Shown here piece by piece: positions 8,747-27,667 of a DNA stretch of 64,000 nucleotides. Both the position numbers and the translations under genes were made by a program. How positions within the stretch are numbered: position 1 is the first letter of the stretch; the number at the start of each line of letters is the position of its first letter. This stretch comes from Ensifer sesbaniae (GTDB lineage: Bacteria > Pseudomonadota > Alphaproteobacteria > Rhizobiales > Rhizobiaceae): assembly GCF_013283665.1 (NCBI RefSeq), contig NZ_JABEKU010000001.1:3541137-3605136 (forward strand). Reading direction: 5' to 3'. The notes beneath the pieces were generated by a model. That model saw nothing but the letters and a program-made list of their open reading frames with translations. It did not search any database and had not been told where the DNA came from.

Positions 8747-10012
8747 CTAACGGATCAGCAACGCCCGGAAATCGTTGACGTTCGTTCCGGTCGGTCCGGG
8801 CACGAACAGATCGCCACTCGCGGCAAAGGCCGACCAAGCATCATGACGGGCGAGATGCAGGCGCGGATCGATACCGGCGGCGCGCATGCGGGTTATGCTC
8901 TCGCCATCGGCAAACGCCCCGGCATTGTCTTCCGAACCGTCAATTCCATCCGTATCCGCGGCAAGCGCATCGATGCCTGCAACACCATCGATGTCGAGCG
9001 CCAGCGACAGCAGCAATTCGCTGTTGCGGCCGCCCTTGCCATACTCCTTGCCGGAGATCGTCACCGTCGTCTCGCCGCCGGAAAGCAGCACCACCGGCTT
9101 GTCGAAGGGGCGATTCCGGAGCGCCACCTCGCGCGCCAGCGCCGCATGCATGCGGCCGATGTCGCTGGCCTCGCCTTCGATCGCATCGGAAAGGATGCGC
9201 GCCTCGATGCCGAGCTGCCGCGCCTTGGCGGCGGCCGCCTCCAGCGACACGCTGGCCGAAGCGATTACATGGCAACGATGCCCGGCGAACCGGGGATCAT
9301 CCGGATCGGGCGCTGCGGCCGCTTCCGAGCGCAGATGCGCCATCACGCCATCCGGAAGCTGCATCCGGTAGCGGGTGACGATGTCGAGCGCCTCGTCCGC
9401 CGTGCTGCGGTCCGGAACGGTCGGACCGGAGGCGACGAAGGCCGGGTTGTCACCGGGCACGTCGGAGACCACAAGGCTGACGACGCGCGCCGGGAAAGCC
9501 GCTGCGGCAAGCCGCCCGCCCTTGATCCGTGACACGTGTTTGCGCACGACGTTCATCGCCGAGATCGGCGCGCCCGAAGCGAGCAGCGCCCTGTTGACCG
9601 CGACCTCATCGGCAAGCGTCAACCCCGCGGGCGGCGCCGGCAACAAGGCAGAGCCGCCGCCGGAGATCAAGGCGATGACGAGATCGTCGGCGGTCAGGCC
9701 CGCCACGGCCTTGAGCAAGGTATCCGATGCGGCAAGTCCCGCCTCGTCCGGTACCGGATGGGCCGATTGCAGCACCGTAATCCGCTCGCAACGCACCACC
9801 GGCCCATGACGCGCCACCACGGTGCCACTGTAGGGATGCTCCCAAAGCTTCTCGAAGGCCGCCGCCATCTGGCTTGCCGCCTTGCCGGCACCGACGACGA
9901 CCGCCCGCCCCTTCGGCGGGTCGGGCAGATGCGCCTTGAGCGCCTCATAGGGATCGGCGGCTCTGACGGCCGCCTCGAAAAGCCGGGTCAGGAACGGGCG
10001 CGCTTCAAACAT
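8747..10012 (-). CDS. ttuD: Glycerate 2-kinase, MOFRL family (TtuD/GckA-like)
   Basis: 421-residue protein of the type-2 glycerate kinase family (DUF4147 plus C-terminal MOFRL domain), often annotated hydroxypyruvate reductase TtuD in rhizobia. Seen are VVVGAGKAASQMAAAFE near residue 40, ALISGGGSALLPAPP near residue 115, the NVVRKHVSRIKGGRLA lysine segment near 155, and the MOFRL tail LSGGETTVTISGKEYGKGGR. It phosphorylates glycerate to 2-phosphoglycerate, an exit to lower glycolysis. It is third in the operon with the GMC flavoprotein and Dabb protein (9-bp gap), so that pathway probably yields glycerate or a related hydroxyacid. Confidence 0.85.
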   Translation of the reverse strand: MFEARPFLTRLFEAAVRAADPYEALKAHLPDPPKGRAVVVGAGKAASQMAAAFEKLWEHPYSGTVVARHGPVVRCERITVLQSAHPVPDEAGLAASDTLLKAVAGLTADDLVIALISGGGSALLPAPPAGLTLADEVAVNRALLASGAPISAMNVVRKHVSRIKGGRLAAAAFPARVVSLVVSDVPGDNPAFVASGPTVPDRSTADEALDIVTRYRMQLPDGVMAHLRSEAAAAPDPDDPRFAGHRCHVIASASVSLEAAAAKARQLGIEARILSDAIEGEASDIGRMHAALAREVALRNRPFDKPVVLLSGGETTVTISGKEYGKGGRNSELLLSLALDIDGVAGIDALAADTDGIDGSEDNAGAFADGESITRMRAAGIDPRLHLARHDAWSAFAASGDLFVPGPTGTNVNDFRALLIR

Positions 10013-10021
10013 AACTTTCGC

Positions 10022-10339
10022 TCAATCGGCAATTTCGAGGTCGTAGACGAAGATGCCGGCGACACCGCCCTCGGCGGCAGCGACGATCTTGGCGCCGGTC
10101 TTGCGATGTTCCTCGTCTTCCAGATAGGCATCCCGCGCCGCTGCATCGGTGAAATCGACGATGAAGCCTTCGCTGAACCCCTTGTCCATGCCCACTTCCG
10201 GGCTGACATTGCCGCCGATATGGGCCGCCATGAACCCCGGCAACCGTGCTTTCAGCGCGACGATCTCGTCGAAGATCGCCACCTTGTCCTCCCTGGTGAT
10301 TTCGGGCCGGAAACGAATGAAGACGCAATGGCGGATCAT
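10022..10339 (-). CDS. Dabb (stress-responsive alpha/beta barrel) domain protein
   Basis: 105-residue dimeric alpha+beta barrel protein of the Dabb family: MIRHCVFIRFRP at the N-terminus, a central HIGGNVSPEVGMDKGFSEGF and a DEEHRK segment. I chose ATG 10339 because GAGG lies just upstream and the family begins with this beta-strand; an upstream frame start at 10393 would overlap the GMC gene. Dabb proteins include small lyases/cyclases and proteins of unknown role. It lies 7 bp after the GMC gene and 9 bp before the glycerate kinase, so it is part of that catabolic operon, perhaps handling a reactive keto intermediate. Confidence 0.8.
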   Translation of the reverse strand: MIRHCVFIRFRPEITREDKVAIFDEIVALKARLPGFMAAHIGGNVSPEVGMDKGFSEGFIVDFTDAAARDAYLEDEEHRKTGAKIVAAAEGGVAGIFVYDLEIAD

Positions 10340-10346
10340 GGAGACC

Positions 10347-12002
10347 TCAACGGATATCGGCGCGGGCGCGTGGGCGGCTGTCGTTACGTTCATGGGCGAA
10401 GATCGCCGGCGGCAAGGGCTGGCGCTCGCGGATGATGTCGGCGCCCTTTTCTCCCATCATGATCGTCGGTCCGTTGGTGTTGCAGGAGGGAACCCGCGGC
10501 ATCACCGAGCTGTCGCAGACCCTGAGGCCCTCGAGCCCCTGCACCTTGAGGTCGAGTCCGACCACAGCCGAGGCGTCCGTCCCCATCTTGCAGGTTCCAA
10601 CCGGGTGGTGATCCGTCTTGGCATTGGCGCAACCATAGTCGAAGAGCTGTTCGTCGGTCGCAATCGAATTGCCCGGCAGACGCTCCGCCAGGACGAACGG
10701 CTTGAGTGCTGCCTGCTGCATGATCTCGCGGGCGATCTTCAGGCCCTCGATCGACATCTTGCGGTCATGCGGGTCTTCCCAGTAGTTGGGATCGATCAGC
10801 GGCGCTACCGCCGGATCGGACGCTGACAGCCGCACGGTGCCGCGCGAGCGCGGGTGCAGGTAAGCGGAGTTGAGCGTGACGCCGGCGTTCTTCAGCTTCT
10901 CGACGCCCGCCTCGATGCCGGACCCAAGGCCCAGATGAAACTGGATGTCCGGCGAGCGGGCATCGGGGTCGGCGTACCAGAAGCCGCCAGTCTCGAAGAG
11001 CGAAGAGGCCACCGGTCCGGAGCGGAACAGCACATATTGCAGCCCTGCCCATAGCGTACGATGAAGTTTCGCCACGCCGTCATAGGTGTGGTCGCCGGTG
11101 CATTCGGAAATCACGAAGAGATCGAGGTGATCCTGAAGATTGCCGCCGACCCCGGGCAGATCGTGCTTCACCTGGACACCCACCGATTTCAGGTGATCGG
11201 CTGGCCCGATGCCGGATTGCAACAAGAGCTTCGGGGAGCCTATAGCACCGGAGGAAACGAGCACTTCGCGCTCGGCCCGGATGATCTCGCTGCCCTTGCC
11301 GGTGACGACCTCGACGCCGACGGCGCGCGTACCTTCGAGCACGATCCGCGCGACACGCGCACCGGTCCGGACCGTCAGGTTGCGGCGGTTCTTGATCGGC
11401 GAGAGGTAGGCAAGCGATGCGCTCGACCGGCGGCGATTGCGCTGGGTGAGCTGGTAGAAGCCGACGCCCGCCTGCTGGCGTCCGTTGAAATCATGGTTGT
11501 AGGGAATGCCGAGTTCCTGGCCGGCGCGGATATAGGCGTCGCAGATCGGCAGCGCCGCGACCGGCATCGAAACACCGAGCGGCCCGCCATAGGCATGGTA
11601 ATCGTCGGCGAAGCGCTGGTTGTCCTCGGCGCGCTTGAAATAGGGAAGCACGCTCCGATAATCCCAGCCGCTGCAGCCGTCCTCGGACGCCCATAGGTCG
11701 TAATCGGCGGCATTGCCGCGCGTATAGAGCTGGGCATTGATCGACGAGCCGCCGCCGATCACCTTGGCCTGGGTATAGCGCAGCACCCTGCCCTTCATGT
11801 GTTTTTGCGGCACCGTGTGCCAGCCCCAGCTCGCGACCCCCTTGGTCATCTTGGCAAAGCCCGCCGGCATATGGAACAGCGGGTTCCAGTCGCCGCCGCC
11901 GGCCTCCAGCAGCAGGACTCGAACCGAAGGATCCTCCGAGAGGCGATTGGCAAGAACGCAGCCGGCCGGACCGGCGCCGGTGATGATGTAGTCGTAGCTC
12001 AT
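10347..12002 (-). CDS. GMC-family FAD oxidoreductase (choline dehydrogenase-like)
   Basis: 551-residue flavoprotein. The Rossmann FAD motif GAGPAGCVLANRL is at the N-terminus, followed by the GMC signatures GGGSSINAQLYTRG (about residue 84) and SSGAIGSPKLLLQSGIGP. The C-terminus has the catalytic HPVGTCKMG and NTNGPTIMMGEKGADII. It oxidises a primary or secondary alcohol, probably passing electrons to the respiratory chain. It is first gene of an operon with Dabb and glycerate 2-kinase genes; ATG 12002 follows GGAGGA. A perfect LacI-type palindrome sits 24 bp upstream, matching the operators of the LacI gene at 25158-26198. Similarity to choline dehydrogenase is familial; betaine synthesis is not implied. 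Confidence 0.85.
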   Translation of the reverse strand: MSYDYIITGAGPAGCVLANRLSEDPSVRVLLLEAGGGDWNPLFHMPAGFAKMTKGVASWGWHTVPQKHMKGRVLRYTQAKVIGGGSSINAQLYTRGNAADYDLWASEDGCSGWDYRSVLPYFKRAEDNQRFADDYHAYGGPLGVSMPVAALPICDAYIRAGQELGIPYNHDFNGRQQAGVGFYQLTQRNRRRSSASLAYLSPIKNRRNLTVRTGARVARIVLEGTRAVGVEVVTGKGSEIIRAEREVLVSSGAIGSPKLLLQSGIGPADHLKSVGVQVKHDLPGVGGNLQDHLDLFVISECTGDHTYDGVAKLHRTLWAGLQYVLFRSGPVASSLFETGGFWYADPDARSPDIQFHLGLGSGIEAGVEKLKNAGVTLNSAYLHPRSRGTVRLSASDPAVAPLIDPNYWEDPHDRKMSIEGLKIAREIMQQAALKPFVLAERLPGNSIATDEQLFDYGCANAKTDHHPVGTCKMGTDASAVVGLDLKVQGLEGLRVCDSSVMPRVPSCNTNGPTIMMGEKGADIIRERQPLPPAIFAHERNDSRPRARADIR

Positions 12003-12025
12003 TCCTTGTCTTCCTCCGCCGCCGT

Positions 12026-12045
12026 AATTTGGAACGTTCCAAATT
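12026..12045. promoter_or_regulatory. LacI-type operator upstream of the GMC operon
   Basis: AATTTGGAACGTTCCAAATT is a perfect 20-bp palindrome 24-43 bp upstream of the GMC start at 12002. Its core TTGGAACGTTCCAA is identical to the palindrome in front of the LacI gene at 26238-26255 and one base different from the site at 26440-26455. The central CG with A/T-rich flanks is typical of LacI-family operators. Confidence 0.75.
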
Positions 12046-12103
12046 TTCGACGTGATAATTCCAAAACCTGCCCGCTTGCGAGCGTCAAAGTCCTGCCCGT
12101 TCC

Positions 12104-12883
12104 CTAGAGCCGGCCGATCGAAAGACCGCCATCCGCCTGGATGACCGAGCCCGTTGCAAAGCCGAATTTACCGCCGGCAAGCCCGGCCACCATGTTGCCG
12201 ATATCCTCGGGCTCGCCCCAACGCCGCATCGGCACCAGTCCGCCATCGATCAGGGCGTCGTATTTCGCCGAAACGCCGGCGGTCATGTCGGAGCGGATGA
12301 TGCCGGGCCGGATCTCGAAGACGGAGATCCCGGTATTGGCGAGCCGGAGCGCCAGCCCCTGGCTGAAGGCGGCAAGGCCGGCCTTGGTCACGCAATAGTC
12401 GAGCCGCTCCGGCGAGCTCATCGTCGCCGAAACCGAGGTGATGTTGATGATCGACCGCGGCGTCACGTCCGTCGGATCGGTCAGCATCGAAACCAGCACG
12501 GCCTGGGTGAAGAACACCGTGCCGCGCAGGTTGGTGGCGACGATCGTGTCAAAGTTCTCCGGCAGCAGATCGAGGAAGTCTCCCCGGACCACCGAGGCGA
12601 TGCCGGCGTTGTTGACGAGGCAGCGGATCGGGCCGAGCTCGGCGCGGACCCGCTCGACGGTCGCGGCATGGCCGCTGACATCGGCGAGGTTCGCCTCGAT
12701 GTAGATGGCCCGGCCGCGATCGCCCGAAAGGTCGGATAGCGTCTGAGCGGTCGTGGCGTCTGCGGCACCGAGGCCCGTGATGGCGATGTCGAAACCTTCT
12801 CGGGCAAGCGCACGGGCAATGCCGAGACCGATGCCGCGGCGGCCGCCGGTGACGATGGCGACAGGACGCGTCGATGACGTCAT
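12104..12883 (-). CDS. SDR-family NAD(P)-dependent dehydrogenase (FabG-like)
   Basis: 259-residue classical short-chain dehydrogenase. TGGRRGIGLGIA is the glycine-rich cofactor loop near residue 12, NNAGIAS follows, and the catalytic Ser-Tyr-Lys are in NITSVSATMSSPERLDYCVTK. ATG 12883 overlaps the stop of the preceding GMC gene by 4 bp (ATGA), indicating translational coupling. Such proteins are routinely called 3-ketoacyl-ACP reductase, but placement at the end of a sugar ABC/GMC operon points to oxidation or reduction of a sugar, polyol or keto-sugar instead. Confidence 0.85.
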   Translation of the reverse strand: MTSSTRPVAIVTGGRRGIGLGIARALAREGFDIAITGLGAADATTAQTLSDLSGDRGRAIYIEANLADVSGHAATVERVRAELGPIRCLVNNAGIASVVRGDFLDLLPENFDTIVATNLRGTVFFTQAVLVSMLTDPTDVTPRSIINITSVSATMSSPERLDYCVTKAGLAAFSQGLALRLANTGISVFEIRPGIIRSDMTAGVSAKYDALIDGGLVPMRRWGEPEDIGNMVAGLAGGKFGFATGSVIQADGGLSIGRL

Positions 12884-14379
12884 GAGCGGAACTCCCTCGT
12901 GGCGATATGGTCGGCGACGCGCAGCGCCTGGGCGGCGACCGTCAACGCCGGGTTGACGGCCGCAGACGTCGGCAGGAAACCGGCGTCGACGACGAAGAGG
13001 TTCGGATGGTCGAAGGCCCGGCAATAGGGATCGAGCGGCGCATCCTTGGGATCATTGCCCATCCGCACCGTTCCGCACTGATGCGATGGCGTCCGCTTGT
13101 CGAAGGCCTGGGAAAGCACGATCGGATAGCCGGCGGCCTTGAAGTGCGCGCGCATCTTCGCTTCGAGCCCGGAGAGCGCCTCCATGTTCGAGCGCCGCCA
13201 CTGCATGATGATGCCCTTGCCGTCGACCATGATGCGGCTTTCCGGATTCGGCAGGTCCTCCGTCATCATGTACCAGTCGACCGCATGGCCGGCTATGAAG
13301 TCGAAGGCGAAGCGCGGCGCCCAGAGTGGCGCATTGGCCTTGAGGATGTCGCCGTTGATCTTGCCGAGAAGCTGGACATTGCCAAGCGGCAAGCCGTCCC
13401 GGCCGCCGGTCAGGTAATAATCGTTCAGCATCAGCGTCTTCTGGTAGATGCTGTCATTGCGCCGGAACGGATTGATCGCCAGCATGGCACTGCAATTGTG
13501 GTTCATGAAGTTGCGGCCGACCTGGTCGGAAGCGTTGGCAAGCCCCTTGCCGTCGCCGGAGCGCAGCAGGATCGCAGCCGAGTTGATTGCGCCTGCCGAC
13601 AGGATCACCAGCTTTGGCGACAGGCGCTTCTTTTCGCCCCTGTGGGTGTAATGGATCGCCTCGATCCGGCCACCCGGCCCCGCCTCCAGCGTGTCGACAT
13701 GGGCGGAGGTGATCAGCTCGACTTTGGGATCCTTCAGCGCCGAGGCAAGCGATGCGGTCTCGGCATCCCTCTTGCCTTCACCGGTATTGGGAAAACCATC
13801 CCACGGCGTGCGCCCGCCGGCCAGCCACGTGCCGATGTCGACACCGAGCGGCAGCGTCGCCGGGTTGAGTCCCTGCGCCTTCAGCTCGGCGCGAGCACGT
13901 GCAATCGCCGGCTCGTCCGGTACAGGTCCGTGAGGGTAAGGCGTGGTGTGGAACGGCTCCGTCGGATCCTCGCCCAATGCGCCGCGCACCTCGAACAATT
14001 GCTCGGCCTTGCCGTACCACGGCTCCAGCTCCTCATAGGGAAAGGGCCAGGCCGGCGAAACACCGCCAAGGTGCTGCATCTCGGTAAAGTCCTCGGCGCG
14101 GTAGCGCAGCAGTACCGCGCCGAAGAGCTTGGAATTTCCGCCGACGAAATAGAAATTTCCCGGATTGAATTCGGTACCATCCGGTTCACGCCACATCTCT
14201 CTCGGCCGGAAGTGGCCCTTGACGAAGATCGAGTTGTAGCTTCGCGCATCCGGCGTGTCGGGCAGCCGTTCGCCGCGCTCGAGTATGGCGATGCGGGCAC
14301 CGGAGTCGGCAAGCCCCGCCGCAATGGTGGAGCCGCCGATGCCTGAGCCGATGATGACGATGTCCGGCTGCGTCTGCAT
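12880..14379 (-). CDS. GMC-type FAD oxidoreductase of the sugar operon
   Basis: 499-residue flavoprotein: GSGIGGSTIAAGLADSG FAD motif at residues ~11-27, VGGNSKLFGAVLLRYRAEDF, and a C-terminal SHQCGTVRMGNDP followed by VVDAGFLPTSAAVNPALTV. The HxCGTxRMG ending marks the sugar/alcohol dehydrogenase branch of GMC enzymes. No signal peptide is seen. It starts 6 bp upstream of the end of the region coding the ABC ATPase (gap 14380-14385) and overlaps the SDR by 4 bp. Sequential oxidation of an imported sugar or glycoside by GMC then SDR is a plausible reading; the substrate is not known. Confidence 0.83.
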   Translation of the reverse strand: MQTQPDIVIIGSGIGGSTIAAGLADSGARIAILERGERLPDTPDARSYNSIFVKGHFRPREMWREPDGTEFNPGNFYFVGGNSKLFGAVLLRYRAEDFTEMQHLGGVSPAWPFPYEELEPWYGKAEQLFEVRGALGEDPTEPFHTTPYPHGPVPDEPAIARARAELKAQGLNPATLPLGVDIGTWLAGGRTPWDGFPNTGEGKRDAETASLASALKDPKVELITSAHVDTLEAGPGGRIEAIHYTHRGEKKRLSPKLVILSAGAINSAAILLRSGDGKGLANASDQVGRNFMNHNCSAMLAINPFRRNDSIYQKTLMLNDYYLTGGRDGLPLGNVQLLGKINGDILKANAPLWAPRFAFDFIAGHAVDWYMMTEDLPNPESRIMVDGKGIIMQWRRSNMEALSGLEAKMRAHFKAAGYPIVLSQAFDKRTPSHQCGTVRMGNDPKDAPLDPYCRAFDHPNLFVVDAGFLPTSAAVNPALTVAAQALRVADHIATREFRS

Positions 14380-14385
14380 CGTCGG

Positions 14386-15501
14386 TTACGCGATCCGCTG
14401 CTGGCTCTGCGGATCGAAGAACACCGCCTTGTCGAGGTTGAAGGCGAGCCGCGAGGTCTGGCCCGGCGCAATGCGGGCATCGGCCCTGAGCCGGGCAACG
14501 ATCTCCTTGCCGCCGAGACGGGTAACCGCAAAGGTGTCGGAACCGGCCGGCTCCACCACCTCGATCAGGCAATCGCCCTCTACGACCACCTTGGCATTGC
14601 GGTCGGCGCCGTCTGGATCGGTCAGTGCTTCCGGACGAATGCCGAAAACGACGTCCTTGCCGGCATAGGCCGAGAGCGCGCCATTGGCATGCGGCACCGC
14701 AAGCTTCAGCGGCTCGGAATTCGGACGCGCCAGCGCCACGGCGATATCGTTGCCGCTCTTTTCGATTCGTGCAGTCAGGAGGTTCATCGCCGGCGACCCC
14801 ATGAAGTCGGCAACGAACATGTTGGCCGGGTTGTTGTAGATCTCGGCCGGCGTTCCGAACTGCTGCAGCACGCCATCCTTCAAGACGGCGATCTTCGTCG
14901 CCAGCGTCATCGCCTCGATCTGGTCGTGGGTGACGTAGACGATCGTCGTCTTCATGCGGCTGTGCAGCCGTTTGATCTCGGTGCGCATGTCGACGCGCAG
15001 CTTGGCATCGAGGTTCGACAACGGCTCGTCGAACAGGAAGACCTGCGGGTTGCGCACCAGCGCACGGCCCATGGCGACGCGCTGACGCTGACCGCCGGAA
15101 AGCTGGCTCGGTTTGCGGTCGAGCAGATGGCCGATCTGCAGCATGTCCGCGACCTGCTTGATCGCCTTCTCGCGCTCCTCCTTCGGCACGCCGCGGATTT
15201 CCATGCCGAAGGCGATGTTTCCGGCAACCGTCATGTTCGGATAGAGCGCATAGGACTGGAACACCATGGCGATGTCACGCTTCGACGGGTGCAGGTCGGC
15301 GACCGAGCGTCCGTTGATGGCGATGTCGCCCGAGGTGATCGGCTCCAGTCCGGCAATGGTGTTGAGCAAGGTCGACTTGCCGCAGCCGGAGGGGCCGACA
15401 AGCACCAGGAAGCCACCCTTCTCGATCTCCAGGTTGATGTCCTTGAGTATCTCAAGCGAGCCGTAGGATTTGCGCAGGTTGGTGATTTTCAAGAAAGACA
15501 T
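14386..15501 (-). CDS. Carbohydrate ABC transporter ATPase (UgpC/MalK type)
   Basis: 371 residues. Walker A GPSGCGKST (36-44), signature LSGGQRQRVAMGRALVR, Walker B VFLFDEPLSNLDA and the switch VYVTHDQ are all intact. The C-terminal ~120 residues form the MalK-type TOBE/OB regulatory domain (VVFGIRPEAL). It energises the two permeases encoded just upstream (4-bp gap) for uptake of the sugar bound by the 17541-18785 protein. Confidence 0.93.
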   Translation of the reverse strand: MSFLKITNLRKSYGSLEILKDINLEIEKGGFLVLVGPSGCGKSTLLNTIAGLEPITSGDIAINGRSVADLHPSKRDIAMVFQSYALYPNMTVAGNIAFGMEIRGVPKEEREKAIKQVADMLQIGHLLDRKPSQLSGGQRQRVAMGRALVRNPQVFLFDEPLSNLDAKLRVDMRTEIKRLHSRMKTTIVYVTHDQIEAMTLATKIAVLKDGVLQQFGTPAEIYNNPANMFVADFMGSPAMNLLTARIEKSGNDIAVALARPNSEPLKLAVPHANGALSAYAGKDVVFGIRPEALTDPDGADRNAKVVVEGDCLIEVVEPAGSDTFAVTRLGGKEIVARLRADARIAPGQTSRLAFNLDKAVFFDPQSQQRIA

Positions 15502-15505
15502 GAGC

Positions 15506-16387
15506 TTATCCTTTCACGGCGCCCGACATCAGCCCGCGCACGAAGTAACGGCCGGACACGATGTAGACGATGAGCGTTGGCAGGGCGGCGAGGATCGCGC
15601 CCGCGAAGTGGACGTTGTATTCCTTGACGCCTGTCGAGGACGAAACGAGGTTGTTGAGCGCGACCGTCATCGGCGTCGAATAGGGGCCGGAGAAGGAGGC
15701 GCCGAACAGGAAGTCGTTCCAGATGTTGGTGAACTGCCAGATGACCGAAACAACGATGATCGGGCCCGAGGACGGCAGCAGGATGCGCCAGAAGATCTGG
15801 AAGAAGCTGGCACCATCAATCTGCGCCGCGCGCACCAGTTCGGTCGGGAAGGCCTCGTAGTAGTTGCGGAAATAGAGCGTCGTGAAGCCGATGCCGTAAA
15901 CCACATGCACCATGATCAGGCCCCAGATCGACCCGGCGAGCCCCAGGATACCGAGGATGCGCGCCATCGGGATCAACACGATCTGGAACGGGATGAAGCA
16001 GGAGAGCAGCAGCATGCCGAAGAAGATGTTGGCGCCGGGGAAGCGCCACTTCGTCAGTACGTAGCCATTCAGCGCGCCGACGATCGTCGAGATCGCGACG
16101 GCCGGGACCACCATCAGGATCGAGTTGATGAAGAACGGCTTGAGGCCGGTCGGCTGCACGCCGATCTGCGCCGTCGACCAGGCCGAGAGCCAGGGCTCGA
16201 CCGTCCAGGTCTGCGGCAGGTTGAGCATGCCGCCCTGGCGGATCTCGTCGAGCGGCTTCAGCGAGTTCACCACCATCACGTAAAGCGGCAGCAGCGAATA
16301 GAGCGCGAAGAGGATCAGCGCCGTGTAAATCAGCGCTCGCGTCAGGCGATTGTGCGAGATGACATTGTCTGGGCTCGGAGCGCTCAT
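15506..16387 (-). CDS. Carbohydrate ABC transporter permease (MalG/UgpE type)
   Basis: 293-residue inner-membrane protein with about six transmembrane helices. An N-terminal TM is at ~residues 14-35 and the EAA loop is in YYEAFPTELVRAAQIDGASFFQIFW, the contact for the ATPase. The C-terminal FVRGLMSGAVKG is typical of MalG-like CUT1 permeases. It overlaps the companion permease by 1 bp and precedes the ATPase by 4 bp. Confidence 0.92.
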   Translation of the reverse strand: MSAPSPDNVISHNRLTRALIYTALILFALYSLLPLYVMVVNSLKPLDEIRQGGMLNLPQTWTVEPWLSAWSTAQIGVQPTGLKPFFINSILMVVPAVAISTIVGALNGYVLTKWRFPGANIFFGMLLLSCFIPFQIVLIPMARILGILGLAGSIWGLIMVHVVYGIGFTTLYFRNYYEAFPTELVRAAQIDGASFFQIFWRILLPSSGPIIVVSVIWQFTNIWNDFLFGASFSGPYSTPMTVALNNLVSSSTGVKEYNVHFAGAILAALPTLIVYIVSGRYFVRGLMSGAVKG

Positions 16388-18785: not shown

Positions 18786-18867
18786 CGTTATCCTCCCGTT
18801 TGCAAGTTTTCGAGATGGAACCTCCTCCCACCCCGGAATTCGCGCCGCTCTAGCCAGCGGCTGGCCA

Positions 18868-18885
18868 TTTAAAACGTTACAAATT
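18868..18885. promoter_or_regulatory. LacI-type operator near the binding-protein promoter
   Basis: TTTAAAACGTTACAAATT is an imperfect palindrome around ACGT, 83-100 bp upstream of the binding-protein start. Its left half is identical to the site at 19003-19020. It is the probable operator of the adjacent LacI protein (19089-20153). Confidence 0.6.
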
Positions 18886-19002
18886 CAGCAAGTCAAGCAC
18901 TCCGCCTTTTTGTATTTTAGCACCTTCGGAACTGTTTGAATTTACTGAATTATACAGCACACACCGGCTATTGCAGCGCAGCAAATCATGCCGCAATGCG
19001 AG

Positions 19003-19020
19003 ATTTAAAACGTTTTCATG
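19003..19020. promoter_or_regulatory. LacI-type operator near the lacI promoter
   Basis: ATTTAAAACGTTTTCATG contains the perfect palindrome AAAACGTTTT (19007-19016), 69 bp upstream of the TTG start of the LacI gene. A third half-site-like ACGTTACAAAA occurs at about 19047-19057. Paired sites about 135 bp apart could support DNA looping across the divergent promoters. Confidence 0.6.
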
Positions 19021-19088
19021 ATTCGATTGCCTAAGCGTTCGCTCCACGTTACAAAACCCGCTCTCACCCGCTTTCAGGATGACTAGCA

Positions 19089-20153
19089 TTGGCCGATCCC
19101 TCCAAGCCCGCCCATCACGAAGACAGTGGCGCTGCTGCCAAGCGCAGCAAGCCGACCCTTCGGACCATCGCGGAAATCACCGGCCTTGCGGTCACCACCG
19201 TTTCGCGCGCGCTCTCCGATGCGCCGCAGATCTCCATCGAAACCCGCAAGCGGGTGCGCGAGGTCGCCGATCAGATCGGCTATTCGCCTGACCGGGCCGC
19301 CCAGCGCCTGAAAACCGGTCGCACCAATGTCATCGGCGTGCTGCTCGACCCGCACGAGGAAATCCTCGGCTACGGCACCTCGATCATGAGCGGCATCGCC
19401 AAGGCGTTGCAGGGCACCGCCTATCACCTGATCGTCATGCCGAACTTCCTCAACTCGACCAATGTCCAGGCGGTGCACTACATTACCCGCAACGGCATGG
19501 CCGACGGCCTGATCTTCTCGCGCACGGAACCGCTCGATCCGCGCGTCCGGCTCCTGTCCGATCTCGGCTTTCCCTTCGTCACCCATGGACGCACGGAACT
19601 TTCGACCCCACACCCCTATGTCGACTACGACAACTTCACCTTTGCCTATCAGGCGACGAAACGCCTGATCGCCAAGGGCAGACGCAAGCCCGCGCTGATC
19701 AGCGGCCCGGCTGACTTCACCTTTTCCGGCCATCTGCAGCACGGCTTCATGACCGCCGTGCGTGAGGCCGGCTGCGCCTACGAGATCCTCTCCGGCATCG
19801 ACCTCGACAGTCCCGCAGGCGCGATCCGCGACCGAATCCGCCAGCGCTACGCCGAGCCCGATCCGCCCGACAGCTTCATGTGCGGCGGCGAGGTCTGTGC
19901 ATTGGCGACCATCACCGGCATGAGCGATTGCGGCCTGACACTCGGCCGCGAATACGACATCGTCGCAAAGCAGACCTCGCATCTTCTCAGCGCCATCCAG
20001 CCGCAAGTCGAGACGATCTACGAGGACCTGACGGCGACCGGCGAGGACATGGGCAGGGTGCTGCTGCAGAAGATCGGCGGCGAGAGCGACGTCAGCAAGC
20101 TGCAACTGCTGCTCTGTCCGCAGATCCCGTCGAGCTTCGGCGCGGCCGACTGA
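19089..20153 (+). CDS. LacI-family transcriptional regulator (sugar transport operon)
   Basis: 354 residues. The HTH LRTIAEITGLAVTTVSRALSD begins near residue 24, followed by the hinge helix RAAQRLKTGRTN and a periplasmic-binding-protein-like sugar-sensing domain. The start is TTG at 19089 with AGGA upstream; an ATG at 19079 is in another frame. The unusually long leader before the HTH (~23 residues) is hydrophilic. It diverges from the GtsA-like binding protein and very likely represses the transporter/GMC/SDR operon in the absence of the sugar. Confidence 0.9.
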   Translation: MADPSKPAHHEDSGAAAKRSKPTLRTIAEITGLAVTTVSRALSDAPQISIETRKRVREVADQIGYSPDRAAQRLKTGRTNVIGVLLDPHEEILGYGTSIMSGIAKALQGTAYHLIVMPNFLNSTNVQAVHYITRNGMADGLIFSRTEPLDPRVRLLSDLGFPFVTHGRTELSTPHPYVDYDNFTFAYQATKRLIAKGRRKPALISGPADFTFSGHLQHGFMTAVREAGCAYEILSGIDLDSPAGAIRDRIRQRYAEPDPPDSFMCGGEVCALATITGMSDCGLTLGREYDIVAKQTSHLLSAIQPQVETIYEDLTATGEDMGRVLLQKIGGESDVSKLQLLLCPQIPSSFGAAD

Positions 20154-20252: not shown

Positions 20253-21761
20253 TCAGCGCGGCATCCACCAGCCGGTGCGCGGCCCCATATGCATGTTGAG
20301 CGTCTTGGTCTCGGTGTAGTCCTCGACCGCATGGCGGCCGAGCTCGCGGCCGAGACCGGACTGGCGGTAGCCACCGAAGGGCAGTTCCGACGCACCGTCC
20401 ATGAAGGTGTTCATCCAGATCGTGCCGGCCCGCACGCGGCGACCGATCGTCAGGCAGGTGTCGAAGTCGCGGCTCCAGACGCCGGCCGAAAGGCCATAGT
20501 CGATCGCATTGGCGATCCGGATCGCTTCTTCCGTCGTCTCGAAGGTTAGCACCGAAAGAACCGGGCCGAACACCTCTTCGCGCGCCACTGCCATGTCAGG
20601 GCGCACGGCCGAAAGGATCGTCGGCGCCATGAACTGGCCCATGCCGAGATCGAGCGCCGTGCCGCCATGGGCGACCGCAGCGCCGTCCCTGGAAGCGGCA
20701 GAAACATAGCCGACGATCTTTTCCAGATGCTGCGGCGTGATGATCGCACCGATCTGGGTTTCCGGGTCGAGCGGATCGCCGACCTTCACCTTGGCCGAAA
20801 GCGCGGCGATGCGCCGCGTCACCTCGTCGGCGATATCGCGATGCAGGATCAGCCGCGAGCCGGCATTGCAGCATTCGCCGGCATTGAAATAGGCGCCGAA
20901 GACAGCCGCATCGATGAACTCATCGAGATTGGCGTCCGGAAAGACGATCTGCGGGTTCTTGCCGCCGAGTTCCAGCGAGACCTTCTTCAGCGTCTGCGCC
21001 GCACTCGCCATGGTCAGCCGGCCGACGCCGGTCGAACCGGTGAAGGACACCATGTCGACATCCGGGTGGCTGGTCATCGGCGCACCGACCTCAGGCCCCG
21101 TGCCGGTGATGATGTTGACGACACCGGCGGGAACACCGGCCGCTTCGAGGATTTCGCCGAGCAGCAGCGTCGAGGCGGACGTCAACTCCGACGGCTTGAC
21201 CACCGTAGTGCAGCCGGCAGCAAGCGCAAAGGGCAGCTTCTGGCTGACGATCAGGAAGGGGAAATTCCAGGGCGTGATGATCGAGACGACGCCGACCGCT
21301 TCGCGCAGCACGACGCCAAGCGTGCCGTCGCCGAGCGTGTTGTAGCTTTCGCCATGCAGGTCGCGGGCAAGTGCTGCGGCATAGCGCCAGATATCGGCGG
21401 CACCGCCGAGTTCGCCCTTTGCCTGGCTGATCGGCTTGCCGGATTCGATCGCATCGAGATAGGCGAGTTCATCGGCCCGTTCGGCGATGATGTCGGCGGC
21501 ACGCAAAAGCACCAGCGAGCGCTGCGACGCGGTCATGCGCGGCCAGGCGCCTTCATCGAAGGCGCGGCGCGCGGCGGCAATCGCCTTCTCGGCGTCTGCC
21601 TTGGTGCCGGCCTGATAGCGGCTGACGACGACGCCGTGACCGGGCGCCACGCGTTCGATCGTGCGTCCTTCGGCGCTGTCCACCCATTCGCCGTCGATCA
21701 GCATCTGGAAGGCGCGCACCTTGTGGCCTTCGATCGGCTTGGGTTTCACGAGCACGGTCAT
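20253..21761 (-). CDS. NAD(P)-dependent aldehyde dehydrogenase (BetB/ALDH superfamily)
   Basis: 502 residues. The catalytic Glu is in SLELGGKNPQIVFPDA and the nucleophile Cys in FNAGECCNAGSRL; SFTGSTGVGRLT, ITPWNFPFLIVSQK and the C-terminal ELPFGGYRQSGLGRELG are typical. I chose ATG 21761, which overlaps the enoyl-CoA hydratase stop (TAATG) and lies 7 nt after GGGAG; the ATG two codons earlier is too close to that site. It is last gene of the operon headed by the second LacI gene. The aldehyde is unknown; the gene set suggests an aldehyde released from an alcohol made by the co-regulated GMC enzyme or from a C-C cleavage step. Confidence 0.87.
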   Translation of the reverse strand: MTVLVKPKPIEGHKVRAFQMLIDGEWVDSAEGRTIERVAPGHGVVVSRYQAGTKADAEKAIAAARRAFDEGAWPRMTASQRSLVLLRAADIIAERADELAYLDAIESGKPISQAKGELGGAADIWRYAAALARDLHGESYNTLGDGTLGVVLREAVGVVSIITPWNFPFLIVSQKLPFALAAGCTTVVKPSELTSASTLLLGEILEAAGVPAGVVNIITGTGPEVGAPMTSHPDVDMVSFTGSTGVGRLTMASAAQTLKKVSLELGGKNPQIVFPDANLDEFIDAAVFGAYFNAGECCNAGSRLILHRDIADEVTRRIAALSAKVKVGDPLDPETQIGAIITPQHLEKIVGYVSAASRDGAAVAHGGTALDLGMGQFMAPTILSAVRPDMAVAREEVFGPVLSVLTFETTEEAIRIANAIDYGLSAGVWSRDFDTCLTIGRRVRAGTIWMNTFMDGASELPFGGYRQSGLGRELGRHAVEDYTETKTLNMHMGPRTGWWMPR

Positions 21762-22543
21762 TACCATTCTCCCTTGAATTGGGCTTCACGCTTTTCGGAG
21801 AAGGCGGCGACACCTTCCTTGAGGTCGCCGGTCTTGGCGACGAGGATGGAGCCGAGCGCCTCGACCGCGGCGCCATTGTCTTCGCCATTTGCCGAAGCGA
21901 TCATTAGTTTCGAAATCTCCAGCGCCGCAGGCCCGCGCTTGGCGACCCGCACCGCATAGTCGCGGGCGGCAGCAAGGACCGTGCCGGTTTCGACCACGGC
22001 ATCGACCAGGCCTTCGGAAAGAGCCGCCTCGGCCGTGAACATCTCGCCGCCGAGCACCATGCGCCTGACGATCTGGGCACCGAAGCGGGAAACCAGGCGC
22101 TGCGTACCGGACCAGCCCGGCACCATGCCGAGGCTCGTCTCCGGCAGGCCGATCTTGATCTGCGCCTCGGCAAGGCGGATGTCAGCGGCGGCCGCAAGCT
22201 CCAGCCCGCCGCCGAGCGCATGACCGTTGAGCGCGGCGATGACCGGCATGCGCAGCGTCGCCAGCCGCTCGAAGACGCGGTGACCGAAACGCACCCAGTC
22301 ATGACCGAAGGCGGGCGCGTCCATGCCGCCCCAGGCCTTGATGTCGCCGCCGGCGGAGAATGCCTTGCCTTCGCCGGTGAGAATGACGGCGCGGATGTTA
22401 CGATCGGCCTCGACCATATCGCAGGCGGATGCCAGCGCCTTCAGCATATCGATGTCGAAGGCGTTGAGCTTTTCCGGACGGGCGACCGTCATGGTCGCGA
22501 TCGCTCCATCCACCTCGATGCGGATACGGCCGCCCTCAGCCAC
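21761..22543 (-). CDS. Enoyl-CoA hydratase/isomerase family protein (crotonase fold)
   Basis: 260 residues. The oxyanion-hole loop GKAFSAGGDIKAWG near residue 65 and the second segment ALNGHALGGGLELAAAADIRLA are intact; the general-base region reads GLPETSLGMVPGWSGTQRL. GTG 22543 is chosen because GGGAGG is 7 nt upstream and it overlaps the CoA-transferase stop by 8 bp. Crotonases hydrate, isomerise or cleave acyl-CoAs. Placed directly after a CoA-transferase, it probably acts on the CoA ester that enzyme makes. Confidence 0.87.
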   Translation of the reverse strand: MAEGGRIRIEVDGAIATMTVARPEKLNAFDIDMLKALASACDMVEADRNIRAVILTGEGKAFSAGGDIKAWGGMDAPAFGHDWVRFGHRVFERLATLRMPVIAALNGHALGGGLELAAAADIRLAEAQIKIGLPETSLGMVPGWSGTQRLVSRFGAQIVRRMVLGGEMFTAEAALSEGLVDAVVETGTVLAAARDYAVRVAKRGPAALEISKLMIASANGEDNGAAVEALGSILVAKTGDLKEGVAAFSEKREAQFKGEW

Positions 22544-24155
22544 GCGCGCCTCCCTCAAGCCGGCGTGCCGGCTTCTTCGGCAACTCGAGTCCGATCGGAG
22601 CTTCCCGGAACAGGGAGGCATCCATCGTCTTCAGATTGTCGGAAACGAGCAGCGGGAACTCGGACTGGTCGAGAATATGCGCCTGCAGATCGACGCCCGG
22701 CGCGATCTCCGTCAGCATGACGCCCTGAGGCGTCAGCTTCATCACGCAGCGTTCCGTCACATAGGTGATGTCCTGGCCCTGCTCTACGCCACGACGGCCG
22801 GAGAAGGTGACGTGCTCGACCTCGTTGACCAGCTTCTTCAGCCTGCCTTCCTTCTCGATCACCAGCCTGCCATCGGCGACCGCAAGCTTGGCGCCCGCAT
22901 TGAACATGCCGGAGAAGACGATCTTTTTCGCCCGCGCGGTGATGTCGACGAAGCCGCCGGCGCCCGCCGTCACATGCGGGCGGAAGGAGAGCTTCGAGAC
23001 ATTGACCGAGCCGTTGCGGTCGATCTCGAGGAAGGAGAGCAGCGAGGCATCGAAGCCAGCGCCCTGGAAATAGGTGAACTGGTAGGGCGAAGGCATGAAT
23101 GCATCGGCATTCGAGGCGCAGCCAAAAGCGAAATCGAGCAGCGGCACGCCGCCGACGGCGCCCTGCTCGATCACCCACGTAACGGCACCATGCAACCCCT
23201 CTTCGAGCAGGATGCGCGGCACGTTGGCCGAAATGCCGAAGCCGAGATTGACGGCGCTGCCGGCCTCGAGTTCCTGCGCCACCCGACGGGCAATCACCTT
23301 CTGGATGTTGAACTCCGGGACGCGGAAACTGTCGAGCGGCCGGAAGATCTCGCCGGAGATTGCCGGGTCGTAAAGCGTCTGGGTCGTCTGCTTCTGGTCG
23401 GGATCGACGATGACATAATCCACCAGGACGCCCGGCACGCGCACGTCGTGGGGCTTCAGCGATCCTTCCTTGGTGATGCGCTTGACCTGGGCAATGACAA
23501 TGCCGCCATTGTTGCGGGCGGCGAGCGCCTGGTCGAGACCGCCGAGATAGGCGCCCTCGTGCTCGTAGGTGAGGTTGCCGCGCTCGTCGGCGGTCGTGGC
23601 GCGGATGATCGCCACCTCAGGCGCGATCGCCTTGAAATAAAGCCAGTCCTCACCCTCGAACGAGACCTTCTTGACCATCGGCTCGGCGGCGGCCGAAGCA
23701 TTCATGGCGCAGCCTTCACGCGACGGATCGACGAAGGTGTCGAGCCCGACCTTGGTCATCACGCCCGGCCGCTTGGCCGCAGCTTCACGGTGCATGTCGA
23801 AGAGGATGCCGGAGGGAATATTGTAGGCAGCCACCTCGTTGGCCCCGATCATCTGCCAGATCATCGGCGGCTCCGCACTCGACGGACCGGACGGATAGGA
23901 GCCGCCGATGATCTTCTTCAGAAGCCCCTTCTTCGCGATGTAGTCGACACCCTTGATACCGCTCATGTCGCCGGCGGCAATCGGGTGCAACGTCGTGAGA
24001 TCGCGCGGATGACCGGTCGTCTCGAAGCGTTCTCCGATCGCCTTCAGCATCAGGTCGGGGCAGCCGAGGCCGCTGGACGAGGAGACGGAAACCACCGCAC
24101 CGTCCGGGATCAGGGCGGCCGCTTCGGCCGGCGAGATATGCTTGTTCATCGACAT
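22536..24155 (-). CDS. Acetate/3-ketoacid-type family I CoA-transferase (YdiF-like)
   Basis: 539 residues with fused alpha and beta halves. The alpha part begins ISPAEAAALIPDGAVVSVSS and has GGSYPSGPSS; the beta half has the catalytic-glutamate region TWVIEQGAVGGVPLLDFAFG (EQGAVGG) and ends with LTEIAPGVDL. It moves CoA from acetyl- or succinyl-CoA to a carboxylic acid. ATG 24155 is chosen, 4 bp after the Gfo/Idh gene; a second in-frame ATG is at 24149. A long open extension upstream lies inside the neighbouring gene and is not coding. The acid activated is unknown. Confidence 0.87.
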   Translation of the reverse strand: MSMNKHISPAEAAALIPDGAVVSVSSSSGLGCPDLMLKAIGERFETTGHPRDLTTLHPIAAGDMSGIKGVDYIAKKGLLKKIIGGSYPSGPSSAEPPMIWQMIGANEVAAYNIPSGILFDMHREAAAKRPGVMTKVGLDTFVDPSREGCAMNASAAAEPMVKKVSFEGEDWLYFKAIAPEVAIIRATTADERGNLTYEHEGAYLGGLDQALAARNNGGIVIAQVKRITKEGSLKPHDVRVPGVLVDYVIVDPDQKQTTQTLYDPAISGEIFRPLDSFRVPEFNIQKVIARRVAQELEAGSAVNLGFGISANVPRILLEEGLHGAVTWVIEQGAVGGVPLLDFAFGCASNADAFMPSPYQFTYFQGAGFDASLLSFLEIDRNGSVNVSKLSFRPHVTAGAGGFVDITARAKKIVFSGMFNAGAKLAVADGRLVIEKEGRLKKLVNEVEHVTFSGRRGVEQGQDITYVTERCVMKLTPQGVMLTEIAPGVDLQAHILDQSEFPLLVSDNLKTMDASLFREAPIGLELPKKPARRLEGGARG

Positions 24156-24159
24156 AAGT

Positions 24160-26198
<2,039 letters not shown>

Positions 26199-26237
26199 AG
26201 CATCCTCCCGAATTTTCTTATCCGCTTTCCCTTTCAT

Positions 26238-26255
26238 AATTGGAACGTTCCAATT
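26238..26255. promoter_or_regulatory. LacI operator upstream of its own gene
   Basis: AATTGGAACGTTCCAATT is a perfect 18-bp palindrome 40-57 bp upstream of the chosen GTG start of the LacI gene. The core is identical to the 12026-12045 site. It likely gives autorepression of the five-gene operon. Confidence 0.75.
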
Positions 26256-26439
26256 TCGTCAAGAGATGGCGGATCACTTTTTTCCACCTTGCTCGCTCAT
26301 CGCATGATTGCTCAGCCTCGTTGATCGATGCAAAGAGAGATTTAAGTCAAAATAACATTATGAAAAATAAAGATATATTCGCCGCTTCGTCACCGACGAT
26401 CTTGCGTGGTCGCACACCCAAAAACATTGCCGCTTGCCA

Positions 26440-26455
26440 TTTGGAACGATCCAAA
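26440..26455. promoter_or_regulatory. LacI operator upstream of DUF993 gene
   Basis: TTTGGAACGATCCAAA, a palindrome broken only at the centre, lies 40-55 bp upstream of the DUF993 start. It is a one-base variant of the two perfect TTGGAACGTTCCAA sites. The 296-bp divergent region (26199-26494) is AT-rich at 26330-26380 and holds no gene I can support. Confidence 0.65.
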
Positions 26456-26494
26456 GTATTCCAAGACAAATTTCCGCGGAGGAGACCAACCCCG

Positions 26495-27667
26495 ATGACA
26501 AGCCTGACGCTGCCGCGCCAAGACGGCTCGCTTGAACAGTACCACCTGGCGGGAACGCCGATCGCGCGGCCCGGGACGCCGCCGACCTTCAACCGCATTG
26601 CCTATGCGGCCGCCCATGTGGTCTCGGATCCGCTTCGCGATCTCGATCCCTGGGGCAGTCCGGCGATCGACTGGGACGCAACGATGGCGTTCCGCCGCCA
26701 CCTCTGGAGCCTCGGCTTCAAGATCGCCGAGGCGATGGACACTGCCCAGCGCGGCATGGGCCTTGCCTGGCCAGGCGCGCAGGAATTGATCCGCCGCTCG
26801 CTTGCCGATGCGCGGCAGGTACCTGGGGCCGACCTTGCCTGCGGCGCCGGCACCGACCATCTGGCGCCCGCCGACACGCGATCGCTGGACGACGTGATCG
26901 CCGCTTATGAGGAGCAGGTCGGCTTCGTCGAAGGCGAGGGGGGAAGGGCGATCATGATGGCAAGCCGGGCGCTCGCCCGGGTCGCGCGCTCGGCCGGCGA
27001 TTATCGCCACGTCTACGGGCACATCCTTCGCCAGACCCGGCACAAGGTCGTGCTGCACTGGCTCGGCGACATGTTCGACCCGCAGCTTAGGGGATATTGG
27101 GGCTCTGAGGATTTCGACCAGGCGCTCGATACCGTGCTCTCGATCATCGAGGCCAACCGCGACAAGGTGGAAGGCATCAAGATCTCGCTGCTCGACAACG
27201 ACAAGGAAGTGGCGTTGCGCAATCGCCTGCCCGAAGGCGTGCTCTGCTTCACCGGCGACGACTTCAACTATGCGGAACTGATCGAAGGCGACGGCGCGAA
27301 ATATAGTCATGCCTTGCTCGGCATCTTCGACGCGGTGGCGCCCTCCGCCTCCAAGGCGCTCACCGCTCTCGCGAAGGGCGACCTCGCCACCTTCCGCGGC
27401 GTGATCGAGCCCACCGTGCCGCTGTCGCGCAAGATCTTCGAAGCACCGACGCAATACTACAAGGCCGGCGTCGTCTTTCTCGCCTGGCTGAACGGTCACC
27501 AGCGCCACTTCACCATGCCGGCGGGCATGCAATCCGCCCGCGGGGTGCTGCACTATGCCGACATCTTCCGCCTCGCCGACCGCGCCAATGTGCTCGACCG
27601 GCCGGAACTGGCGGCAGAGAGGATGAAAAGCCTGCTATTGACCTTGGGCGTGGACCGGGGCGCGTAA
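26495..27667 (+). CDS. DUF993 protein, dihydrodipicolinate synthase-like TIM barrel
   Basis: 390 residues of the DUF993 family, which is related to the DHDPS/N-acetylneuraminate lyase class I aldolases. Seen are VSDPLRDLDPWGSPAIDW, GMGLAWPGAQELIRRSL, HWLGDMFDPQLRGYWGS and a central VEGIKISLLDNDKEVALRNR whose GIKIS lysine sits where DHDPS-type enzymes form the Schiff base. Start ATG 26495 follows GGAGGAG. It diverges from the LacI operon with matching operators, so it works in that pathway, perhaps as an aldolase or dehydratase on a keto-sugar acid. No substrate is known to me. Confidence 0.82.
   Translation: MTSLTLPRQDGSLEQYHLAGTPIARPGTPPTFNRIAYAAAHVVSDPLRDLDPWGSPAIDWDATMAFRRHLWSLGFKIAEAMDTAQRGMGLAWPGAQELIRRSLADARQVPGADLACGAGTDHLAPADTRSLDDVIAAYEEQVGFVEGEGGRAIMMASRALARVARSAGDYRHVYGHILRQTRHKVVLHWLGDMFDPQLRGYWGSEDFDQALDTVLSIIEANRDKVEGIKISLLDNDKEVALRNRLPEGVLCFTGDDFNYAELIEGDGAKYSHALLGIFDAVAPSASKALTALAKGDLATFRGVIEPTVPLSRKIFEAPTQYYKAGVVFLAWLNGHQRHFTMPAGMQSARGVLHYADIFRLADRANVLDRPELAAERMKSLLLTLGVDRGA

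Follow-up and report, generated by a model that had tools for sequence, protein, structure and literature searches.

What is degraded by the genes of this locus, and does a single LacI-family regulator hold them together? The window, i.e., the whole stretch of 64,000 nucleotides that was analyzed, contains a cluster of catabolic, transport and regulatory genes (Table 1), which the initial annotation had read as an undescribed regulon in which one LacI protein ties together three transcription units 14 kb apart. Scans with NCBIfam and Pfam returned the gene content that had been described for the marked units. Taken as a whole, the locus is best explained as a 1,5-anhydro-D-fructose reductase (AFR) cluster that would be controlled by LacI2, together with LacI1, and would serve a CoA-dependent route, an explanation that we consider reasonably probable.

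Table 1. Genes and candidate regulatory sites of the cluster, with positions in the window.
Feature	Position	Strand	Remarks
Glycerate kinase, MOFRL type	8747..10012	-	DUF4147 + MOFRL; below NCBIfam equivalog cut-offs
Dabb-domain protein	10022..10393	-	
GMC1, choline dehydrogenase-like alcohol oxidoreductase	10347..12002	-	
O3, candidate LacI2 operator	12026..12045	none	AATTTGGAACGTTCCAAATT; perfect palindrome, 20 bp; before GMC1
SDR, 3-ketoacyl-ACP-reductase-like	12104..12883	-	NF009386 above cut-off; start at MTSSTRPV
GMC2, glucose/fructose dehydrogenase-like flavoprotein	12880..14379	-	
abcK, ABC ATPase, UgpC type	14386..15501	-	
abcG, ABC permease	15506..16387	-	
abcF, ABC permease	16387..17265	-	
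abcE, ABC transporter sugar-binding protein	17541..18785	-	775 bits to 4r2b
lacI1-abcE intergenic region	18785..19089	none	Two conserved ATTTAAAACGTT-type sites, unlike the LacI2 operator (alignment, 27 sequences)
LacI1, second LacI regulator	19089..20153	+	Own conserved sites
Aldehyde dehydrogenase, betaine-aldehyde-dehydrogenase-like	20253..21767	-	Below equivalog cut-offs
Crotonase / enoyl-CoA hydratase	21761..22534	-	Both catalytic-Glu motifs; ORF open to 22621
CoA-transferase, YdiF type	22536..24155	-	382 bits to 2ahu ydiF; EQGAVGG motif; start MSMNKH chosen by eye
AFR (the 'Gfo/Idh' gene)	24160..25161	-	Identities to PDB 4koa and 2glx
LacI2, LacI-family regulator	25158..26198	-	GTG start; Pfam LacI + Peripla_BP
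O1, candidate LacI2 operator	26238..26255	none	AATTGGAACGTTCCAATT; perfect palindrome, 18 bp; before lacI2 and its operon
O2, candidate LacI2 operator	26440..26455	none	TTTGGAACGATCCAAA; one centre base off; before DUF993
DUF993, DHDPS-superfamily TIM barrel	26495..27667	+	

The perfect palindromes O3 and O1 and the one-base variant O2, on which the idea of a common regulator had been built, were borne out by the sequence. Their 14-bp core is exact at 12029-12042 and 26240-26253 and has one mismatch at 26441-26454, the O3 core (12029) being separated by 26 bases from the start of GMC1 (12002). A scan of the whole genome (6.9 Mb) detected two exact cores and one with a single mismatch, all three at the cluster and none elsewhere. 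With a first-order Markov model built on the window, the numbers expected per genome are 0.012 for exact and 0.56 for one-mismatch cores. That palindromes occur beside a LacI gene by chance and mark no regulon could be argued from looser matches. When three mismatches were allowed in the window, four sites were observed versus a mean of 1.44 expected, a test that is weak by itself as 7 of 100 shuffles reach four, and cores with two mismatches occur at 11 places in the genome, which barely exceeds the 7 obtained with a reversed control pattern and makes looser sites uninformative. However, the strict sites are unique genome-wide and deeply conserved, and we regard such a coincidence as highly improbable.

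O3 was present in all 16 genomes of the genus, forming a conserved island within its intergenic region, and 41 of the 43 sites with at most one mismatch in these genomes are located at the cluster locus, the reversed control giving 5 matches. Similarly, the cluster accounts for 53 of 57 forward sites in 27 genomes that were picked for having LacI2 orthologs (reversed control, 15 matches). Among 80 named loci, which are the best 80 of at least 591 matches to a search pattern that contained the recognition helix and are therefore biased to close orthologs, 77 show a site with one mismatch or none within 420 bp upstream of lacI2 and 74 have two or more upstream sites with at most two mismatches. 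When the palindrome and the co-occurring genes were sought across relatives, a check that had been suggested at the outset, a palindrome with at most one mismatch was found before the first gene in all six clusters of a distant clade with the 5' end examined, and in five of these six AFR, CoA-transferase, enoyl-CoA hydratase, aldehyde dehydrogenase, ABC, GMC2, SDR, GMC1, Dabb, DUF993 and LacI2 form one collinear run. More distant AFR orthologs adjoin the CoA-transferase gene in 7 of 9 cases, with a site before AFR, and in one genome (G203) lacI2 and two target sites are on different contigs. Conservation in the genus, in most of the named relatives and in some distant lineages ties the operator to LacI2. 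The f42 genomes (G042, G147) were set aside as a different system, having a LacI2-like protein (47-48%), only a three-mismatch site and TRAP-transporter genes beside it.

LacI2 combines a LacI helix-turn-helix with a periplasmic-binding-protein-like effector domain, as is found in the LacI family. Although an ATG at 26237 can also be read as start codon, the GTG at 26198 assumed initially is favoured by the starts of orthologs and, by eye, by a GGGAGG ahead of it. The recognition helix (11 residues) is shared by 20 of 20 aligned orthologs and is absent from the other 27 LacI-HTH loci of the genome, according to a plain string search that covered all 28 loci, some of which were missed by pattern-based helix extraction. 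Apart from the LacI2 match, this 28-locus search gave one out-of-place SKSTIS reading, in L288. A palindromic operator upstream of the regulator's own gene and of its targets, conserved alongside the regulator, is the arrangement of an autoregulated local regulon of the LacI family, and by comparison this regulon is well supported. LacI2 very probably represses the cluster from three TTGGAACGTTCCAA operators, which precede its own operon (lacI2-AFR-CoA-transferase-crotonase-ALDH), the divergent DUF993 gene and the GMC1-Dabb-glycerate kinase unit, and an anhydro sugar or a derivative would release this repression.

The proposal that one LacI protein links three units thus holds for these three targets, but the abcEFGK-GMC2-SDR unit faces LacI1 with a different conserved operator and one regulator is therefore not the whole story; judged from the alignment, LacI1 is a second putative regulator with its own conserved sites before that unit. 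Also, the sites are indeed spaced over 14 kb, but the transporter, GMC, SDR and second LacI genes lying between them belong to the same conserved cluster. The presence of LacI1 was considered as the cause of the extra GMC1 site and rejected, since G351 (L191, L245) has LacI1 and lacks the GMC1 site, and five f16 clusters have this site and no LacI1 in their gene maps.

With regard to the substrate, the initial annotation had found no matching textbook pathway, thereby overlooking that the Gfo/Idh protein is an AFR. Over its full length it is identical to PDB entry 4koa at 296 of 333 positions and to 2glx, which we take to be the S. morelense enzyme, at 287 of 331 (87-89%), and its motifs EKP (93-95) and DITVHD (176-181) match the catalytic residues Lys94 and His180. 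Because of this identity, the locus is likely an AFR catabolic cluster, carried by a soil bacterium of the Ensifer/Sinorhizobium type with legume symbionts among its relatives, and its probable function is the breakdown of 1,5-anhydro sugars. Branched-sugar, cyclitol, deoxyribonate-like and PEG-like pathways had been weighed and were dropped on the AFR match. A polyol, branched sugar or sugar acid had been suggested as the starting compound and a C3 hydroxyacid as one product; the latter is plausible as glycerate, whereas for the substrate an anhydro sugar or an anhydrohexitol is the better reading. According to the review PMC12441222, the metabolism of 1,5-anhydrofructose in Rhizobiaceae starts with such a reductase, which comes from a strain that had been isolated on this sugar. 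The binding protein AbcE, with 4r2b as its nearest match followed by sugar- and glucose-binding proteins, was also counted in favour of this kind of substrate.

Alternatively, the substrate might be another glucose-like compound, e.g., an osone, a 1-deoxy sugar or a glucoside, and the reduction of anhydrofructose a side activity of the Gfo/Idh enzyme. AbcE is related to glucose-binding proteins, AFR reduces osones too, and the cluster is retained minus AFR and DUF993 in 6 of 65 named loci (from the best 80 of at least 591, 15 being dropped for contig edges). Where DUF993 was missing, no replacement aldolase divergent from lacI2 was recognised by eye in 13 loci. One ORF from loci without DUF993 was identified as a histidine kinase in a family search, and c18 of f16, considered as a glycerate-kinase substitute, was rejected as it is a riboflavin-synthesis gene. 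In S. meliloti, SMc04396, which is named among sugar transport genes, is reported to be induced by dextrin (PMC4960864). However, in distant lineages AFR is the leading gene of the operon, and it is 87-89% identical to an enzyme family from a strain of the same group that was isolated on anhydrofructose (PMC12441222), and we consider another substrate rather unlikely.

For the reading as an anhydro sugar cluster a route can be drawn, whose chemistry we infer throughout, except for the AFR activity, as a close relative is reported to have it. The ABC transporter would import 1,5-anhydro sugars, AFR would reduce 1,5-anhydrofructose to 1,5-anhydromannitol in an NADPH-dependent step, and GMC2 or SDR would perhaps feed in anhydroglucitol via C2 oxidation. 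Oxidation of C6 to the carboxylate by GMC1 and the aldehyde dehydrogenase may be followed by thioester formation by the CoA-transferase, whereupon the crotonase would eliminate the 4-OH, which occupies the 3-hydroxyacyl-CoA position, to give an enol ether; its hydration would open the ring and yield a 2-keto-3-deoxy acid. The best solved relative of the crotonase is the 3-hydroxypropionyl-CoA dehydratase 5zai, which, with the presence of both Glu motifs, was counted in favour of this elimination, and the five distant clusters with all genes in one run were counted in favour of a single pathway. DUF993 would then cleave the keto acid to pyruvate and glyceraldehyde, the latter being oxidised to glycerate and phosphorylated. 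As the AFR product has the manno configuration, the aldehyde formed would be D-glyceraldehyde and the acid made from it D-glycerate, on which the kinase usually acts, whereas the gluco epimer would give L-glyceraldehyde; that only the manno epimer yields D-glycerate would explain why AFR makes it. As an undescribed aerobic CoA-dependent route for 1,5-anhydrohexitols, comprising C6 oxidation and thioesterification, 4-OH elimination, ring opening, DUF993 cleavage to pyruvate and D-glyceraldehyde, and the choice of manno for D-glycerate, this sequence of steps is put forward tentatively, as one possibility.

The role given to DUF993 agrees with its TIM-barrel fold of the DHDPS/NAL aldolase superfamily, which is near YagE, 4-hydroxy-2-oxoglutarate aldolase and a KDG aldolase (11-16% identity among the alignments listed), from all of which it differs in being a separate Pfam family. 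DHDPS/NAL aldolases carry their Schiff-base lysine on strand 6, in a GIKEAT-type motif. In DUF993, Lys229 (GIKIS) is invariant and falls on predicted strand 6 (225-231), which makes it a candidate for this lysine. We propose that DUF993 may be a new aldolase family for the pyruvate-forming cleavage of a 2-keto-3-deoxy acid. A literature search for DUF993 by name and for the operator motif found no paper, which does not prove absence in print. The cluster provides a short, testable list of candidates and a proposed function for DUF993.

For the same class of substrates the ring might be opened differently, if GMC2 or SDR oxidises C3 to a ketone and beta-elimination of the ring oxygen follows, with the CoA steps acting on the opened chain and DUF993 cleaving a different keto acid. 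There are three candidate oxidoreductases for ring hydroxyls (AFR, GMC2, SDR), GMC2 is similar to dehydrogenases of glucose and fructose, GMC2 and/or GMC1 occur in several AFR-less clusters (L068, L145, L149, L179, L180), and glycoside chemistry offers a 3-keto precedent. However, a C3 ketone leaves no special role for C6 oxidation by GMC1 and the aldehyde dehydrogenase or for the manno stereochemistry of AFR. The present data do not discriminate between oxidation at C3 and the C6/CoA route; we judge the former to be of low probability.

Among the known systems that come close is the breakdown of 1,5-anhydro-D-fructose by Sinorhizobium morelense S-30.7.5 (Kuhn, Yu and Giffhorn 2006, via PMC12441222), a member of the same bacterial group; the AFR described here is 87% identical to 2glx, named 1,5-anhydro-D-fructose reductase. 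The next step reported for that strain is a C1 hydroxylation to mannose, for which the 2025 review names a P450-like enzyme that is still unidentified (PMC12441222), whereas the present cluster has CoA-dependent and aldolase-type genes and no oxygenase. If the reviewed route operated here, an oxygenase encoded elsewhere would convert anhydromannitol to mannose and the remaining genes would serve another substrate under a shared regulator; indeed, 11 stretches elsewhere in the genome match P450s. However, none of the cluster ORFs matched a P450 in scans (NCBIfam, Pfam and a P450 search), and on this contig the closest P450 lies at a distance of more than 100 kb. A P450-like oxygenase is neither co-encoded nor, as LacI2 sites with at most one mismatch are confined to the locus, co-regulated by LacI2. 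Also, in other families and classes AFR heads an operon with CoA-transferase and mostly enoyl-CoA hydratase and aldehyde dehydrogenase, which would be hard to explain with unrelated substrates, and hydroxylation to mannose is in our view quite unlikely. If true, the CoA-dependent route would replace the C1-hydroxylase step of the reviewed account (PMC12441222). The same class of substrates is used in the anaerobic degradation of 1,5-anhydroglucitol and anhydromannitol by the glycyl-radical enzymes YbiW/PflD (Ma et al., via PMC12441222), but no PTS or glycyl-radical gene was found among the cluster ORFs, each scanned with NCBIfam, Pfam or both, and the gene set is oxidative.

For the regulator, 'undescribed' was too strong a term, since SMc04401 of S. 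meliloti, of which LacI2 is likely the ortholog as inferred from locus-tag order, was among the regulators with motif models in 2015 (PMC4560400); the entry, as excerpted, gives regulon size and conservation and no substrate, motif letters or pathway. SMc04390/91/92 are annotated like GMC1/SDR/GMC2 (PMC12542648), and the extracts of the literature found give no substrate for the 12 S. meliloti locus tags of the cluster run. Local LacI sugar regulons of the AglR/ThuR type, as outlined in PMC4052901, likewise consist of a LacI regulator and a divergent target operon with an ABC transporter, whereas the cluster described here has an additional operator ahead of GMC1, its transporter unit faces a second LacI that has a different motif, and its catabolic genes are CoA-dependent.

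The palindromes that the initial annotation had placed before lacI2, DUF993 (a DHDPS-superfamily TIM barrel) and GMC1 (a GMC oxidoreductase) were borne out in position when the window sequence was checked. In the 6.9 Mb genome, TTGGAACGTTCCAA occurs in two exact copies and one copy with one mismatch, all three being the window palindromes; under a first-order Markov model of the window sequence, a genome would be expected to hold 0.012 exact copies and 0.56 with one mismatch. At two mismatches 11 genome places compare with 7 for the reversed control pattern, so that only strict sites are meaningful.

Coordinates of the features discussed (positions in the window unless a locus is named)
Feature	Position	Strand	Remark
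LacI2	25158-26198	-	LacI regulator
LacI1	19089-20153	+	second LacI regulator
O1	26238-26255		before lacI2
O2	26440-26455		before DUF993
O3	12026-12045		before GMC1
lacI1-abcE gap	18785-19089
PuuR-like regulator and omega-aminotransferase	6648-8682
LacI2 paralog	L092:8207-9430		genome G210
DUF993 paralog	L099:9274-10437
DUF993 paralog	L100:9532-10695

In the search across Rhizobiales that the initial annotation had called for, the palindrome accompanies LacI2. A LacI2-like match was found in 127/297 genomes of the order (E 1e-40). The best 30 matches include that of the window itself; in 24 of them a site lies within 420 bp upstream of the LacI2-like gene when up to one mismatch is allowed, and in 25 when up to two are; the five loci without a site are those at 45-48% identity, L031 excepted. 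Sites no more than one base off the palindrome occur in 25 of 27 genomes selected for a LacI2 match, and the 57 forward sites (versus 15 matches for the reversed pattern) comprised 53 in the cluster, one next to a LacI2 paralog and three elsewhere. This paralog (49%) adjoins a sugar ABC transporter, has the same palindrome type upstream and is perhaps part of a duplicated regulon. Among the best 80 named relatives of a longer list (Ensifer, Sinorhizobium, Rhizobium, Aminobacter, Phyllobacterium and others), 77 carry a copy of the palindrome differing by one base or none within 420 bp of lacI2; when up to two mismatches are allowed, 74 have at least two sites. The closest named relative among the matches listed, in which records very near the window genome may be missing, was Ensifer sp. 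LC11 (LacI2 97%). The 11-residue recognition helix of LacI2 is invariant across 20 aligned orthologs and absent from the other 27 LacI-HTH loci of the source genome, all of which were searched.

The site before GMC1 is lineage-specific yet recurrent. With at most one mismatch, it stands directly upstream of GMC1 in 16/16 genus genomes as a conserved island within the SDR-GMC1 gap, and genus-wide 41 of 43 forward sites belong to this locus versus 5 reversed-control matches. A 121-genome family search retained 30 loci, two of which, both from the genus, have the GMC1 site. It also occurs immediately before GMC1 in 5/5 clusters of one group of relatives (f16) and upstream of GMC1 in genome G308; one cluster of another group (f11; G155) has a site before GMC2.

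The marked genes form a single cluster rather than three separate units. Within one divergent clade, the order CoA-transferase (CoAT), crotonase (ECH), aldehyde dehydrogenase (ALDH), abcEFGK (ABC transporter), GMC2, SDR, GMC1, Dabb, DUF993, LacI2 is contiguous in 6/9 loci (L229-L237), some of which are truncated where the fetched stretch ends; glycerate kinase (GlyK) follows LacI2 in two of the six. When the 5' ends of five of these six clusters and of G308 were fetched, the first gene was preceded in 6/6 by a palindrome deviating at one position or none; G308 begins with CoAT and the other five with 1,5-anhydro-D-fructose reductase (AFR). In G203, one contig carries the regulator with AFR and ECH, and another DUF993, CoAT, ALDH, GMC2, SDR, GMC1, Dabb and GlyK with two sites. 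AFR-like matches were present in 17/398 genomes of a phylum-level search; nine of these loci, all from outside the nearest groups, were fetched, and seven adjoin CoAT with a palindrome (at most one mismatch) before AFR, one ending at a contig edge after CoAT, while the other two do not show this arrangement.

LacI1 faces the ABC operon, and 27 aligned intergenic regions share two conserved ATTTAAAACGTT-type sites in the lacI1-abcE gap that differ from the LacI2 operator; judged from sequence, the middle unit is therefore probably under LacI1. Thus, of the regulon of three units under one LacI that had been proposed, the conservation of the operator with LacI2 stands, but the genes are one cluster whose middle unit probably has its own regulator. 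LacI1 control may be the reason why GMC1-Dabb-GlyK has its own LacI2 site in the window genome; as a general explanation of the extra GMC1 site, LacI1 presence was rejected, the correlation failing in other lineages. Elsewhere in the window, a PuuR-like XRE/cupin regulator is divergent from an omega-aminotransferase scoring above the NCBIfam cut-off for AptA, and no LacI2 site was found within this region at up to three mismatches.

Excerpts of a review (PMC12441222) state that in Rhizobiaceae 1,5-anhydrofructose is reduced to anhydromannitol, which is converted to mannose by a P450-like enzyme, still unidentified according to that review. There is no P450 in the cluster, and the 11 P450-matching stretches of the source genome all lie outside it. 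CoAT, crotonase and ALDH are present in 65/65 scorable named loci, AFR in 58/65 and DUF993 in 54/65. On these grounds we propose a route in which the anhydro sugar would be oxidized at C6, activated with CoA, subjected to elimination, opened at the ring and cleaved by an aldol reaction. As drawn from Fischer projections, the manno product of AFR would lead to D-glyceraldehyde and the gluco epimer to the L-form. Counting against the CoA route are the published mannose report, as excerpted, and the lack of both AFR and DUF993 in 6/65 scorable named loci.

Loci L145, L149, L167, L169, L179 and L180, from mostly Rhizobium leguminosarum/phaseoli types and one Xaviernesmea, are without AFR and DUF993 yet keep LacI2, its operator and CoAT-ECH-ALDH. 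AFR orthologs (64-65%) lie outside the cluster in L314 and L315, in whose genomes a LacI2-like gene (L098) adjoins AMP-ligase, SDR and TRAP transporter genes. In L099 and L100, a DUF993 paralog (58-59% identity) belongs to a different cluster with Gfo/Idh genes; 4dnh (SMc04132), a solved structure, may represent this type.

In summary, the observation of the initial annotation is confirmed and its interpretation partly supported. As to the chemistry, our literature search found no description of the proposed CoA-dependent C6-oxidation/elimination/aldol route, which is directly testable. Excerpts of PMC4052901 contain no mention of LacI2. The regulator itself has a probable counterpart: by inferred orthology, SMc04401, listed in the excerpted part of PMC4560400 among S. 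meliloti regulators having motif models, is probably the LacI2 ortholog. Excerpts of two further papers report that dextrin induces SMc04396 (PMC4960864) and that SMc04390-04392 are annotated like GMC1, SDR and GMC2 (PMC12542648).
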